A stretch of DNA of 44,964 nucleotides from Methanomassiliicoccaceae archaeon (lineage in GTDB: Archaea > Thermoplasmatota > Thermoplasmata > Methanomassiliicoccales > Methanomethylophilaceae), in assembly GCA_003550345.1 (NCBI GenBank), contig PUJZ01000047.1, forward strand, positions 1-44,964, written 5' to 3'. Positions 9,337 through 33,868 of this stretch are shown here, piece after piece (within the stretch, counting starts at the first letter, position 1; each line of letters begins with the position of its first letter). Position numbers and translations under genes: made by a program. Below the pieces are notes generated by a model. The model worked only from the letters and a program-made list of their open reading frames with translations. It had not been told where the DNA came from and did not search any database.

Positions 9337-10386
9337 ATGGACGTCTACCGCTCGGAGGCCGCCGCCCCCTCCCATAGGGAGTGGACCGTTGCCGAGGCGA
9401 CGGAGATGGCGATGCGGATGTTGGAGGCCGAGGGCGTTGCCGGGGGCACGGAGAGGGGCCATATCGCTTACAGCCAGGAGGACATGGAAAGTCATATCCG
9501 CCATGCCGCCGAGGCGCTGCGCTCCGATTCCCCCCGCCTATTCTCCGATTACCTGCAATGGAACAAGGTGTTCTTCGAGAGCATCGGAATGGGGCACATC
9601 GTTGAGCCGACGTTCAGGGTCATCGCCGAGGTCATGACCGAGTTGGGAATGGGGGATCGCGTCGACGCGGTGATGAGGCCTGTGTTGGCCTCATTCGAAT
9701 CCGTCTCCGGTCGGGAGGAAGCCCTCGACAAGGACGCCCCCTTGCACGGAACTGCCGCGCTATACACCGAGAGGCTTCTGAAGGGGGACAAGGAGGCCGC
9801 CCTGCGAACGGTCAAGGACGCGATGGCGGACGGCGCCACGGTGGCGGACATATACAAGCACGTGTTCCAGCCATCGCTGCGGAGGGTGGGCCATCTCTGG
9901 CAGACGGGGGAGATAAGTGTGGCCAAGGAGCATTTCTTCACATCGGCGACGCAGACGGTCATGGCCAGCCTCTATCCGGAGATATTCGCCACCCCTCCCC
10001 ACAAGGACAAGGTGGTGGCGGTATGCGTTTCCGGAGAGCTGCATGAGATGGGCATCCGCATGATATCCGACCTGCTGGAGATGGACGGCTACGACACCAC
10101 CTATCTGGGGGCAAACACCCCCGCCGATGCGGTGGTGGATGCTGTCAAAGAGCTGGGGGCAAAGGTTCTGCTTGTCTCCACCACCATGACCTACCATCTC
10201 GACCGGCTCAGGACGCTCATAGGCCTGCTGAGGGCGGACGATCGCAGCAAGAAGACCAAGGTCTTCGTGGGGGGGAGGCCCTTCATCATCGACAGCGGCC
10301 TGTGGGCCTCGGTGGGCGCCGACGGGATGAGCAAGGACATGGATGAGGCGGTCATGCTGGTGAAGCAGACCCTGGGAGACGGCTGA
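9337..10386 (+). CDS. Cobalamin-binding protein with MetH-cap/CarH-like WxxxEH region; probable sensor
   Basis: The 349-residue protein has three parts. Residues 1-130 form a helical region of unknown type. Residues about 135-215 match the B12-binding helical cap, with LWQTGEISVAKEHFF carrying W188 and E198-H199, as in MetH, MtbC and CarH. Residues about 224-345 are a Rossmann-like B12 domain with GELHEMGIRMISDLLEMDGY; this is the DxHxxG motif with Glu for Asp, so the Co-ligating histidine (H236) remains. TYLGAN and FVGGRPF follow the usual pattern. The stop overlaps the kinase start by one base. No methyltransferase is adjacent, so a sensor role, for light or corrinoid state, is favoured over methyl transfer. 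A TATA-like box lies at 9305-9312. Confidence 0.82.
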   Translation: MDVYRSEAAAPSHREWTVAEATEMAMRMLEAEGVAGGTERGHIAYSQEDMESHIRHAAEALRSDSPRLFSDYLQWNKVFFESIGMGHIVEPTFRVIAEVMTELGMGDRVDAVMRPVLASFESVSGREEALDKDAPLHGTAALYTERLLKGDKEAALRTVKDAMADGATVADIYKHVFQPSLRRVGHLWQTGEISVAKEHFFTSATQTVMASLYPEIFATPPHKDKVVAVCVSGELHEMGIRMISDLLEMDGYDTTYLGANTPADAVVDAVKELGAKVLLVSTTMTYHLDRLRTLIGLLRADDRSKKTKVFVGGRPFIIDSGLWASVGADGMSKDMDEAVMLVKQTLGDG

Positions 10387-11762
10387 TGCCCGTCCACTTC
10401 AGCGTGGTCGTGGACGGGGACGGCCGGATACTGCACGTTCTCAGCGGCGACAGCACCGTGAGGGCGGCACGGAACATCAGCGAGCTGGTGTCGGGCGATG
10501 CGCAGGCGCTGCTGGACAGGGCCCGTGTCCTCGGGTCGGATTTCAGCGCCGAGCTGGAGCTCGCCGGTAGCGATGAGCGGGCGGCCATGGCCGCGGTCGG
10601 ATCAGCGGAGAGCATACTGGCGATATGCGCCGCCAACGCCCAGGAGCTGACATCGCATCTGCGTTGCATCAGGAGCCCGAACGATCCGGTGCTGGGCACC
10701 GGGGACGGCGATGCTGATTCCCATGACCGGATGACCCGCCTCAACAACGAGCTCATCAACGCCCAGAGGGAATTGGCCAAGCTGAACGCCCGCTACTCCC
10801 GCGACCTAGAAAAGCTGGGAGAGACGCTCGCCAGGATCGGCAGCGGCATAATCGTGCTCAACAGCGAGGCCGAGGTGGAGATGATGAACGAAGCCGCCGC
10901 CGCCAAGCTCGGAGTGGCGGATGACCCCGCGGGCAAGCGCCTGGAGCAGCTGCTGCGGCTCTCCGCCGGCACCGCGTTCCATGATGCGGAGGAGGACAAA
11001 CTGCACCGATGGAGGGTGGAGGCGCTCCACGGCGGCACCCTGGAGCTCTACGGCAGCGTCAACCGGATCGGAGCCAACAACAAGGTGATAGCCTTCCAGG
11101 ACATCAGCGAAATCCTCCGTCTGGAGAAGGAGCTCATGGATAGCAACGAGCTGCTGCGGCTCATACTCAAGGTCACCAGGCACGACCTTTTGAACCATCT
11201 CACCGTGGCCCAGGGCTACATCGAACTGTCCGGTTCCTATGAGGGGGACGAGCGCCTCCAACGTTCCAGCGAGGCCTTGTCCAAGGCCGAGGGGATAATC
11301 CGGCAAATGAGGGACCTGGAGTCCCTGGTCCTGGAGAAGGGCGACAAGGAGAGGACCGGGCTCGCCGCCACCGTGGAGACGGCCATGCAAGGGCATCCCA
11401 TGGACTGGACCATCGAAGGGGACGCAACGGTCTTGGCCGACCCCGCTCTGCCCTCCGTCATCGACAACATCGTGGACAACGCCGTGAAGCACGGGGATGC
11501 GGACCGCTTGGACTTCCGGGTCCGCAACGAGGGGGACCGCTCGGTGCTGAGCATAGCCGACAACGGCAGCGGGATACCGCCGGAGATCAAAGAAAGGCTC
11601 TTCCAGGAGGGCTTCTCCCACGGGAAGGCCGCCAACACCGGCCTCGGCCTCTACCTGGCGGACCAGGTCATGCGCCGCTACGGCGGCTCCATATCGGTGG
11701 AGGACAACCGCCCCTCAGGCGCCCTCTTCCATCTCAGCTTTCCCCGCTTGGATCCCTCTTGA
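10386..11762 (+). CDS. Sensor histidine kinase with PAS domain, coupled to the cobalamin-binding protein
   Basis: This 458-residue protein has no transmembrane segment, so it is probably cytosolic. Residues 1-95 look like a degenerate PAS-like domain (VVVDGDGRILHVLSGD). A coiled-coil linker (about 115-145) and a PAS domain (about 146-245, SGIIVLNSEAEVEMMNEAA) follow. The phosphoacceptor box VTRHDLLNHLTVAQGY has H266. The ATPase domain shows the N box DNIVDNAVKHG, G1 DNGSGIP and G2 NTGLGLYLADQV. Its ATG overlaps the stop of the cobalamin protein (TGATG), implying equimolar synthesis and interaction. No response regulator is adjacent; a lone receiver is at 33497. The 3' end overlaps the convergent HEAT-repeat gene by 29 bp. 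Confidence 0.93.
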   Translation: MPVHFSVVVDGDGRILHVLSGDSTVRAARNISELVSGDAQALLDRARVLGSDFSAELELAGSDERAAMAAVGSAESILAICAANAQELTSHLRCIRSPNDPVLGTGDGDADSHDRMTRLNNELINAQRELAKLNARYSRDLEKLGETLARIGSGIIVLNSEAEVEMMNEAAAAKLGVADDPAGKRLEQLLRLSAGTAFHDAEEDKLHRWRVEALHGGTLELYGSVNRIGANNKVIAFQDISEILRLEKELMDSNELLRLILKVTRHDLLNHLTVAQGYIELSGSYEGDERLQRSSEALSKAEGIIRQMRDLESLVLEKGDKERTGLAATVETAMQGHPMDWTIEGDATVLADPALPSVIDNIVDNAVKHGDADRLDFRVRNEGDRSVLSIADNGSGIPPEIKERLFQEGFSHGKAANTGLGLYLADQVMRRYGGSISVEDNRPSGALFHLSFPRLDPS

Positions 11763-12599: not shown

Positions 12600-12824
12600 A
12601 TGGTCGATGAGAAATTGGACTGCAAAGGGATGATGTGCCCCATGCCCATCGTCCATATTACGAAGAGGATCAAGGCCATGGAGCCCGGCCAGGTGCTGGA
12701 GGTCCTCGCCGATGACGAAGGCTCCCTGGAGGACGTGCCCGCCTGGGCGGGGCGCACCGGGAACGTCCTCATGGAGCAGACCGAGGAGGGCGGCGTCTAC
12801 CGCTTCATGATAAGGAAGAGTTGA
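12600..12824 (+). CDS. tusA: TusA/SirA-family sulfur carrier protein
   Basis: TusA proteins carry sulfur as a persulfide on a single cysteine. The 74-residue protein contains the diagnostic CPMP motif in LDCKGMMCPMPIVHITKRI, with the alpha-beta pattern and EVLADDEGSLEDVPAWAGRTG that follow it in the family. It is the first gene of a compact operon with DsrE2-, TusB-, TusD- and TusC-like proteins. This makes a sulfur-transfer role likely, for example in tRNA thiolation or sulfur-cofactor formation. The acceptor is unknown. Confidence 0.93.
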   Translation: MVDEKLDCKGMMCPMPIVHITKRIKAMEPGQVLEVLADDEGSLEDVPAWAGRTGNVLMEQTEEGGVYRFMIRKS

Positions 12825-12829
12825 TAAAG

Positions 12830-13249
12830 ATGACAGGCAACGATGCTGACGACAAGGTGGCGATAGTGGTCTCAGAGGGCTCGTACGACAAGGCGATGGC
12901 CTCGGTGTTCCTCGGATCCACCGCCGCCGGCCTGGGGATGGAGGTCCACCTGTTCTTCACCTTCTTCGGCCTGGAGCTGTTGAAGAAGGACAAGAGGCCC
13001 AAGCTGAAGGGAATGTACCGGCCGTTCACCGGCATGTTCGAGAAGAAGATGAAAGGTATCGGGGTGGAGTCCTTCCAGGGCATGATGGACACCTGCTCGG
13101 AGCTGGGGGTCAGGCTCTACGCCTGCAGCACGTCCATGGAGGCCATGGGCCTGAAGAAGGAGCAGCTGCGGGACGGGGTCGACGTGCTGGGGGCGTCGAA
13201 GTTCCTGGACATCGCCGCCGGCTCGAAGGTGCAGCTTTTCATCGGGTGA
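12830..13249 (+). CDS. DsrE2-like (DsrE/DsrF/DrsH-like) sulfur-transfer protein
   Basis: The protein has about 139 residues and the DsrE2 signature: DDKVAIVVSEGSYDKAMAS, then MEVHLFFTFFGLELLKKDK and the Cys-bearing LYACSTSMEAMGLKKEQL, ending SKFLDIAAGSKVQLFIG. The cysteine is the expected persulfide site. DsrE2 genes commonly lie beside tusA in sulfur-metabolising microbes, as here. The ATG at 12830 is preferred; a TTG at 12821 overlapping the tusA stop is the alternative. Confidence 0.88.
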   Translation: MTGNDADDKVAIVVSEGSYDKAMASVFLGSTAAGLGMEVHLFFTFFGLELLKKDKRPKLKGMYRPFTGMFEKKMKGIGVESFQGMMDTCSELGVRLYACSTSMEAMGLKKEQLRDGVDVLGASKFLDIAAGSKVQLFIG

Positions 13250-13253
13250 TAAA

Positions 13254-13550
13254 TTGCGGTCGAAGCTATTCCTCCTGCTGAAATCCCCCCGTGAGTTCCA
13301 CGCCCTCGAGGAGATGGAGGCCATCGCCGGCGAGGCTGACCGGGCGGCGGTGCTGCTTAACGACGCGGCGCTTTTCGCGACCCAGGAGGGCAGGCTCGAG
13401 GAGCTTCTACAGGTCTGCCCCGAGGTCTTCGTCATGAAGGACGACCTTCAGGCCCGCGGCCTGGACCCCTGCCCGGGAGTGGTGGAGATCGACTACCATC
13501 AGCTGGTGGAGCTGATAATGGACGAGTACGACCAGACGGTCACGCTGTAG
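13254..13550 (+). CDS. TusB/DsrH-like protein
   Basis: A 98-residue protein starting at TTG 13254, 4 bp after the DsrE2-like stop. It begins MRSKLFLLLKSP and contains AAVLLNDAALFA and VFVMKDDLQARGLD, the pattern of TusB/DsrH, whose family members often read LxxDLxARG. TusB forms a heterohexamer with TusC and TusD. The usual TusB cysteine near the C terminus is not obvious: the C-terminal stretch is DEYDQTVTL, and the cysteines lie in LQVCPEVF and LDPCPGVV. Gene order supports the call. Confidence 0.78.
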   Translation: MRSKLFLLLKSPREFHALEEMEAIAGEADRAAVLLNDAALFATQEGRLEELLQVCPEVFVMKDDLQARGLDPCPGVVEIDYHQLVELIMDEYDQTVTL

Positions 13551-13558
13551 GTGATGGC

Positions 13559-13915
13559 ATGTCCACGATGTTGATACAGATACGCTCGGGAACGATGATG
13601 AACATGGACACCAATGTGCTGGTGAAGCTGGCGCAGGCCGCATTGGACCGGGGGCATGCGGTGAAGGTCTTCGCCTACGGGGAGGGGATAAGCGCCCTCA
13701 AGGACGGCCAGGACCCCAAGAGGTTCCCTAACGTGGGCGGGATCCTGCGTGAGCAGATCTCCCAAGGCCTGACGCTGGTGGCCTGCGAGACCTGCTGCCA
13801 CGCCCGCGGCATGAGAAGGGGCGAGGAGTTCGAAGGCTCGAAGATAGGCAGCATGACCAACGACCTCTCCGTTTTCGTGTCCGAATGCGACCGCATGGTA
13901 ACTCTGGCGAGGTGA
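13559..13915 (+). CDS. TusD/DsrE-like sulfur-transfer protein
   Basis: This 118-residue protein shows the DsrE fold pattern TMLIQIRSGTMMNMDTNVLV, DRGHAVKVFAYGEGISALKD, and the reactive region LVACETCCHARGM. The cysteines lie where TusD/DsrE carries its persulfide, but here three cysteines cluster (CETCC), which is unusual. It is 8 bp after the TusB-like gene and 1 bp before the TusC-like gene. The trio presumably forms a TusBCD-type complex that takes sulfur from TusA. Confidence 0.82.
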   Translation: MSTMLIQIRSGTMMNMDTNVLVKLAQAALDRGHAVKVFAYGEGISALKDGQDPKRFPNVGGILREQISQGLTLVACETCCHARGMRRGEEFEGSKIGSMTNDLSVFVSECDRMVTLAR

Positions 13916-13916
13916 G

Positions 13917-14279
13917 ATGATGGCCGAGAGCATCGCTGTACTGATAACCAAGCCGCCTTACGGCACCGAGGACGCCTTCGCCGGCATGAGGCAGGCGCTG
14001 GCGCTGCAGGTCTCCGGCCTCATGGAGAGGACGGCCGTCCTGATGATGGGCGAGGGGGCCCTGAACGCTCTGGCGACGCAGCAGCCCCGGGCCCTGTCCA
14101 TGCCCTCCAACGCCGAGGCGGTGGAGGACCTGGTCGCATTGGAGGCCGAGGTCTATGTGATCTCCGAGGACCTGGATGCGCTATGCGCCGACGCACGGCT
14201 TATTGAAGGGGTGCGCAGACTGGACTGGGAGGACGCCCAGGACATGCTGTCCGCTATGGACGTCGTCACAACCTTCTGA
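13917..14279 (+). CDS. TusC/DsrF-like protein
   Basis: The 120-residue protein starts MAESIAVLITKPPYGTEDAF, the conserved opening of TusC/DsrF (PPYGxxxAxxGLxxAL), and continues GMRQALALQVSGL and TAVLMMGEGALNAL. TusC is a structural subunit of the TusBCD sulfur-transfer complex and lacks the key persulfide cysteine, consistent with the sequence. The start is either of two consecutive ATG codons (13917 or 13920). It is the last gene of the operon. Confidence 0.86.
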   Translation: MMAESIAVLITKPPYGTEDAFAGMRQALALQVSGLMERTAVLMMGEGALNALATQQPRALSMPSNAEAVEDLVALEAEVYVISEDLDALCADARLIEGVRRLDWEDAQDMLSAMDVVTTF

Positions 14280-33496: not shown

Positions 33497-33868
33497 ATGA
33501 GCGAGAAGTACAGGCTGCTTCTGATCGAGGATAATCCAGAGCATCTCAAGCTCATGGTAGATCACCTTCCCTCGGACATATTCGACATCGACACCGCCAC
33601 CACCAAGGCGGAGGCGCTGGACAAGGCGCTGAAGAAGGACTACGACCTCATCACCATCGACTACTTCCTGCCGGACGGCAACGGGCTGGAGGTCTTCACC
33701 GCCATCCACGACCGCAATCCCGAGCAGAAGACGATCATGGTGACCGCCGCCGACGACCCCGAGCTCAGCTTCTCGGTCATGAAGGGCGGCGCCTTGGACT
33801 ACATAGTGAAGTCCTTCAAGTACTACACCCACTTGAAGGAGAGGATCATCGAGAACCTGGAGGAATGA
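33497..33868 (+). CDS. Single-domain response regulator (receiver only)
   Basis: The 123-residue REC domain has the acidic pair in LLLIEDNPEH, the phospho-accepting aspartate in LITIDYFLPDG, the threonine of IMVTAADDP and the lysine in DYIVKSFKYY. It has no output domain, so it must act through protein contacts or phosphorelay. The ATG follows a strong gaggagg Shine-Dalgarno. Its stop overlaps the start of a flavodoxin-like gene by 4 bp (ATGA), suggesting that the two act together. A candidate kinase is the cobalamin-linked histidine kinase at 10386, but that is inference. Confidence 0.93.
   Translation: MSEKYRLLLIEDNPEHLKLMVDHLPSDIFDIDTATTKAEALDKALKKDYDLITIDYFLPDGNGLEVFTAIHDRNPEQKTIMVTAADDPELSFSVMKGGALDYIVKSFKYYTHLKERIIENLEE

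Follow-up and report, generated by a model that had tools for sequence, protein, structure and literature searches.

Two genes on the forward strand of contig PUJZ01000047.1 from a Methanomassiliicoccaceae archaeon encode a photocobilin-like B12 protein, P0001, and a soluble histidine kinase, P0002 (Table 1). Positions refer to the window, i.e. the whole stretch of 44,964 nucleotides that was analyzed. The P0001 reading frame opens with an ATG at 9337 and closes with a TGA at 10384-10386, and the ATG of P0002 lies at 10386, one base being common to both genes (TGATG). An earlier note on this DNA gave both frames and their one-base overlap exactly. Its title, which called the pair translationally fused, is wrong, as these are two separate reading frames. 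P0001 and P0002 are separate genes and are likely coupled in translation. The possible TATA box close to the P0001 start codon suggests a transcript with little or no leader.

Table 1. Features of the P0001/P0002 locus (positions in the window).
Feature	Position	Strand	Basis
TTTAATTA, possible archaeal TATA box, about 24-31 bases 5' of the P0001 start codon	9306..9313	+	sequence only, inferred
P0001, photocobilin-like B12 protein, 349 aa	9337..10386	+	ORF, Pfam, best PDB sequences
P0001 bilin-type globin, about residues 14-125; predicted helices 18-31, 40-62, 66-82, 86-118	9376..9711	+	family profile, PF00502 in relatives, models, Foldseek
P0001 Asp49, aligns with SasPcob Asp270 (key biliverdin contact)	9481..9483	+	ungapped profile alignment, conservation
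P0001 Trp75, aligns with SasPcob Trp296 (corrin ring and bilin ring D contact)	9559..9561	+	profile alignment, conservation
P0001 four-helix B12 cap, residues about 136-218; GHLW 185-188, EH 198-199	9742..9990	+	Pfam B12-binding_2, motifs
P0001 Rossmann B12-binding domain; Co-ligand H236 in GELH 233-236; GANTP 258-262	10000..10383	+	Pfam B12-binding, motifs
P0002, soluble histidine kinase, 458 aa	10386..11762	+	ORF, Pfam, hydropathy
Helical segment HDRMTRLNNELINAQRELAKLNARYSRDLEKLGETLA, common to partners, candidate coupling/docking helix	10722..10832	+	cross-locus comparison
PAS-like domain of P0002, sub-threshold here, supported in L053	10800..11135	+	Pfam
His266, predicted phosphoacceptor in RHD	11181..11183	+	motif, sequence
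HATPase_c catalytic domain of P0002; DNIVDNAV and TGLGL motifs intact	11448..11747	+	Pfam, motifs

P0002 has the features of an orthodox sensor kinase: a phosphoacceptor histidine, N and G boxes, and a HATPase_c domain (Pfam, 8e-22), the match to the dimerisation/phosphoacceptor helix being weaker. It is free of transmembrane-like stretches (maximum KD19 1.4), as previously proposed. The PAS domain also proposed for it is only partly borne out: in P0002 itself the match stays under the Pfam cut-off, whereas the homologue in locus L053 matches PAS_9 at 9.8e-8. In another kinase homologue (L051), PAS_7 falls just below threshold (26.7 bits versus a cut-off of 27). A second kinase gene (GAF-PAS-kinase, L053 3216-6395) lies 3' of the paired kinase in genome G026.

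A HEAT-repeat gene is convergent to P0002 (11734-12273, minus strand; HEAT_2 1.2e-34, with a weaker PBS-lyase-type HEAT match). An equivalently placed ORF, also on the minus strand, is its likely counterpart in the two closest relatives, L006 (6203-6808) and L007 (3678-4274), probably reflecting genus-level synteny. TusA and DsrE-type sulfur-transfer genes are located 3' of the pair (12600-14279, plus strand), and the DsrE gene is present after the kinase region in L006 and L007 too. Nine receiver domains were counted in the genome. Two are short stand-alone receivers, including one of 123 aa in the window (33497-33868, plus strand), which is a candidate partner of an orphan kinase; the other is at C31:583-915. 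A PHROGs search gave no match.

The B12 domain and its light motifs

In Pfam, P0001 matches B12-binding (3.5e-19) and B12-binding_2 (4.6e-17). Light-responsive B12 domains are defined by four motifs, GxxW, EH, GxxH and GxxxP (PMC11796333), and all four are found in P0001 as GHLW, EH, GELH and GANTP. The earlier note had correctly placed W188, E198, H199 and the Co-ligand, H236 within GELHEMG. The spacing between tryptophan and EH, then described as WxxxEH, is in fact W-x9-EH. The replacement of Asp by Glu in DxHxxG had been taken as a distinguishing mark; it is not distinctive, because E/DxH is normal in CarH-like photoreceptors (PMC10979010). Across 13 family members the cap Trp and Glu and the Co-ligating His never vary, and 12 of the 13 keep the His of EH. 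The best PDB sequence matches are the CarH-like CtMerR (8jbs, 4e-22) and a photocobilin (8j2w, 2e-20). CtMerR and the photocobilins 8j2w, 8j2x and 8j2y make up the four best, above methyltransferase corrinoid proteins. Foldseek with the AF2 model of P0001 (pLDDT 84.5) likewise retrieved 8jbs (6e-11) and 8j2y (1e-9).

P0001 could in principle be a corrinoid protein serving a methyltransferase, with the kinase a chance neighbour. The B12-binding fold is shared, and there are weak NCBIfam matches to MtgC/MtbC. These matches are far under the cut-offs, however (73.5 bits versus 370 for the methyltransferase-corrinoid model). As controls we used 27 methyltransfer-type corrinoid proteins from the same order as the host. 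GxxH and GxxxP alone are present in many of them; GxxW-x9-EH is found in none (0/27) and distinguishes P0001 from them all. That no methyltransferase gene lies beside P0001 had already been noticed, and none adjoins the relatives examined either, while across phyla the neighbour is repeatedly a kinase or cyclase. Motifs, model scores and neighbours thus all speak against this explanation, which is extremely improbable, and we reject it.

In the alignment, Q189 follows W188 at the position of His132 in CarH. With Gln in place of this His, a water- or hydroxide-ligated light state would be expected, as in SasPcob, rather than a bis-His state. The Tenericutes homologue (L009 5875-6942), whose partner is a diguanylate cyclase, has WH instead of WQ at the cap Trp. 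As this is the arrangement in CarH, this homologue could have a bis-His light state. A distant archaeal relative (L049 5824-6837) carries EY in the cap instead of EH and has no same-strand kinase directly after it; it is possibly a light-blind variant.

The N-terminal globin and cofactor supply

The N-terminal 130 residues had been described as an extra helical domain setting P0001 apart. Predicted structures are indeed helical, and the domain alone has no significant match in Pfam. With the isolated domain, Foldseek ranks 8j2w first at a non-significant E of 0.3, and in the PDB sequence search a weak second alignment places residues 47-101 on that structure's bilin-binding domain. The domain was identified with an N-domain profile built from 11 relatives and searched against the PDB. 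The three photocobilin structures came out on top (8j2w, 8j2x and 8j2y; E 3.6e-6 to 7.9e-6), and nearly all matches ranked below them were phycobiliproteins. PF00502 (Phycobilisome) is matched by three relatives (best 4.9e-10). A novel helical domain is therefore rejected: the profile identifies a bilin-type globin, which makes P0001 a member of the photocobilin/photoglobin family.

Asp occupies the D49 position in 10 of 13 family members, P0001 among them, and W75 is invariant in the 13 (in the SasPcob numbering used here, PDB chain index + 6 gives the published residue, W55 being Trp61 and W290 Trp296). AbDPcob has a His at the Asp position and is yet a photocobilin, with weak bilin binding (PMC10979010). 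The globin of P0001 is devoid of Cys, C230 being the sole Cys of the protein.

Searches for a canonical heme oxygenase found none in the host's own genome or in any of six genus members, nor in the genomes with the Ginsengibacter and Tenericutes relatives, nor for L043, L044 and L045, where the search covered the plasmid only. The HutW model for anaerobic radical-SAM heme opening gave matches only far under the cut-off, the same as in control genomes. The lack of heme oxygenase in genome and genus makes native biliverdin doubtful, and the globin probably operates without self-made biliverdin. It may either be biliverdin-independent, like AbDPcob, which is a poor biliverdin binder and needs only AdoCbl for its light response (PMC10979010), or use a scavenged bilin. 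A full two-chromophore photocobilin, with a scavenged bilin in the globin extending the response to red light, seems to us rather unlikely. The biliverdin-contact Asp, shared with 9 of the 12 other aligned relatives, and W75, present in all, would fit such a protein, and cyanobacteria in light-penetrated soda-lake sediments could supply community bilins (PMC6146748). However, contact with the corrin ring accounts for the conservation of Trp75, no bilin uptake route was identified, and the genus and the Ginsengibacter and Tenericutes relatives' genomes offer no heme oxygenase.

As for adenosylcobalamin, the genus member with the most complete genome encodes a CobA/BtuR adenosyltransferase; neither PduO nor CobA was found in the host's own genome (89% complete). 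The close relatives at L006 and L007 come from MAGs with CS-Sed10/CSBr16 names. CSSed10 is a soda-lake sediment dataset, and light penetrates the surface of such sediment (PMC6146748). Judging solely from these named relatives, the host may be exposed to light.

P0001 might instead be a sensor of cobalamin state or redox. It would then tell the kinase how much adenosyl- or methyl-corrinoid is present or in which form, or convey oxygen or redox signals through Co, with light incidental. The host lineage is rich in corrinoid-dependent methyl transfer, with corrinoid proteins across the whole order, constant light sensing is less obvious for anaerobic life, and the failure to find heme oxygenase in the host, its genus or the relatives' genomes searched agrees with such a role. 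We nevertheless regard it as unlikely. The GxxxP loop of P0001 and its cap residues W, E and H are those responsible for adenosyl holding and photo-release in CarH and photocobilins, and they are retained across phyla of quite different corrinoid metabolism. Moreover, swapping other cobalamins into a published fusion gave no rise in cyclase activity (PMC10979010).

Relatives, partner genes and the shared helix

Full-length relatives of P0001 (25-52% identity) occur in four bacterial phyla and in other archaea, their hosts being Bacteroidota, Tenericutes, Fusobacteriota, Alphaproteobacteria and other Thermoplasmatota. Within the order they were found in just 6 of 147 genomes, one of the six ending at a contig edge. 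Most deep branches are unresolved in a 13-row tree of the family, and its patchy spread makes lateral transfer likely. A kinase gene lies directly 3' of the relative in seven loci (L006, L007, L015, L008, L042, L043 and L047) and a GGDEF (diguanylate cyclase) gene in two (L009 and L045). L016, L044, L046 and L049 have no adjacent kinase or cyclase partner. Across the kinase and cyclase loci, sensor and partner overlap or are a few tens of bases apart. The pairing of a CarH-like sensor with a kinase, already suspected from the window, thus gains comparative support, since the gene pair is kept across phyla.

A helix, MTxLNNELxNxQRxLAK, is common to all kinase partners and clearly to one cyclase; in P0002 this LNNEL helix corresponds to residues 113-149. 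A motif model made from the kinases only retrieves the cyclase partner in L009 (E 1.8e-5 among 1767 ORFs), and the Ilyobacter cyclase scores a merely suggestive E of 0.62. Searched against 390 genomes of the phylum, the model matches only the source genome and one SMC-like coiled coil, in G327, which was discounted. In a plasmid collection, 8 of 12 matches adjoin P0001 relatives, in the Azospirillum replicons carrying them. The helix is thus largely specific to these sensor/output cassettes and is a reasonable coupling element, which may contact P0001.

Proposed mechanism and comparison with known systems

Domain make-up, motifs, gene coupling and the conserved partner helix can all be read directly from the sequences of the pair. 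We think it probable that P0001 is a photocobilin-family sensor (globin plus CarH-type B12 domain) that switches the downstream kinase in trans. Most likely it would do so as an AdoCbl-dependent light sensor; AdoCbl binding, light as the signal, the contact with the kinase and the direction of the effect are what we infer. In the dark, adenosylcobalamin would be bound base-off on H236, W188, E198, H199 and a second subunit would pack around its adenosyl group, and P0001 would be a compact dimer. Green light would cleave the Co-C bond, the adenosyl group would depart, the cap helix would move and the dimer would loosen, giving a light state that is water- or hydroxide-ligated. The change could reach P0002 via the N-terminal region of the kinase and the LNNEL helix, and the outcome would be altered phosphorylation of H266 and of a response regulator. 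In vitro measurements have shown light-activated regulation in trans by a separate, standalone photocobilin (PMC10979010). More tentatively, and with the balance of our judgement slightly against it, the pair may represent a mobile two-gene B12 light switch. Here a conserved sensor would drive either a kinase or a diguanylate cyclase as interchangeable outputs by way of the LNNEL docking helix, with cobalamin alone as the hosts make no biliverdin, and would bring light-controlled two-component signalling to a methanogen lineage.

If the light-sensor reading holds, a methanogen-lineage anaerobe senses light via vitamin B12, the methyl-transfer cofactor of its relatives, and this would be a green-light switch in an anaerobic archaeon. 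The P0001/P0002 pair is small and soluble, and is suited to direct testing.

Among known systems, MtbC/MtgC share with P0001 the B12-binding module and the Co-ligand His. They lack GxxW-x9-EH and the globin, whereas P0001 lacks a methyltransferase neighbour. CarH and CtMerR (MerR-type B12 photoreceptors; 5C8D, 8JBS) carry the four light signatures in their B12 domain, as P0001 does. P0001 differs from CarH in having a globin in place of the MerR-type DNA-binding domain and no equivalent of His132. The photoglobins (Schneider et al. 2022), as described in papers that cite them, and bilin-associated globins (PMC10151467) also combine non-heme, phycobiliprotein-related globins with B12 domains. 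The genomes with B12-partnered related globins in PMC10151467 encode heme oxygenase, in contrast to the P0001 host, where none was found.

The closest likeness is with the photocobilins SasPcob and AbDPcob (PDB 8J2W, 8J2X, 8J2Y; PMC10979010), which likewise unite a bilin-type globin and a CarH-type B12 domain. They resemble P0001 in the W, EH and E-x-H motifs and in the bilin Asp and Trp positions, and SasPcob also has Gln after the cap Trp. In P0001 the globin comes first, while in the solved photocobilins it comes last. Photocobilins with a C-terminal AdoCbl domain are a reported group (PMC10979010), and as both the globin-first layout and activation in trans by a standalone protein have been reported there, P0001 belongs to a known family. 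It differs in its host, an archaeon of a methanogen lineage with no heme oxygenase found, and in its output, a separate histidine kinase gene. In the literature examined, a scope outside which the founding photoglobin survey falls, we found no description of a split sensor/output cassette whose output partners share a helix, nor of such a cassette in a methanogen lineage or without heme oxygenase. The natural targets of stand-alone photocobilins are unclear (PMC10979010). If our reading is true, these proteins locate their output proteins through a conserved helix on the product of the next gene.
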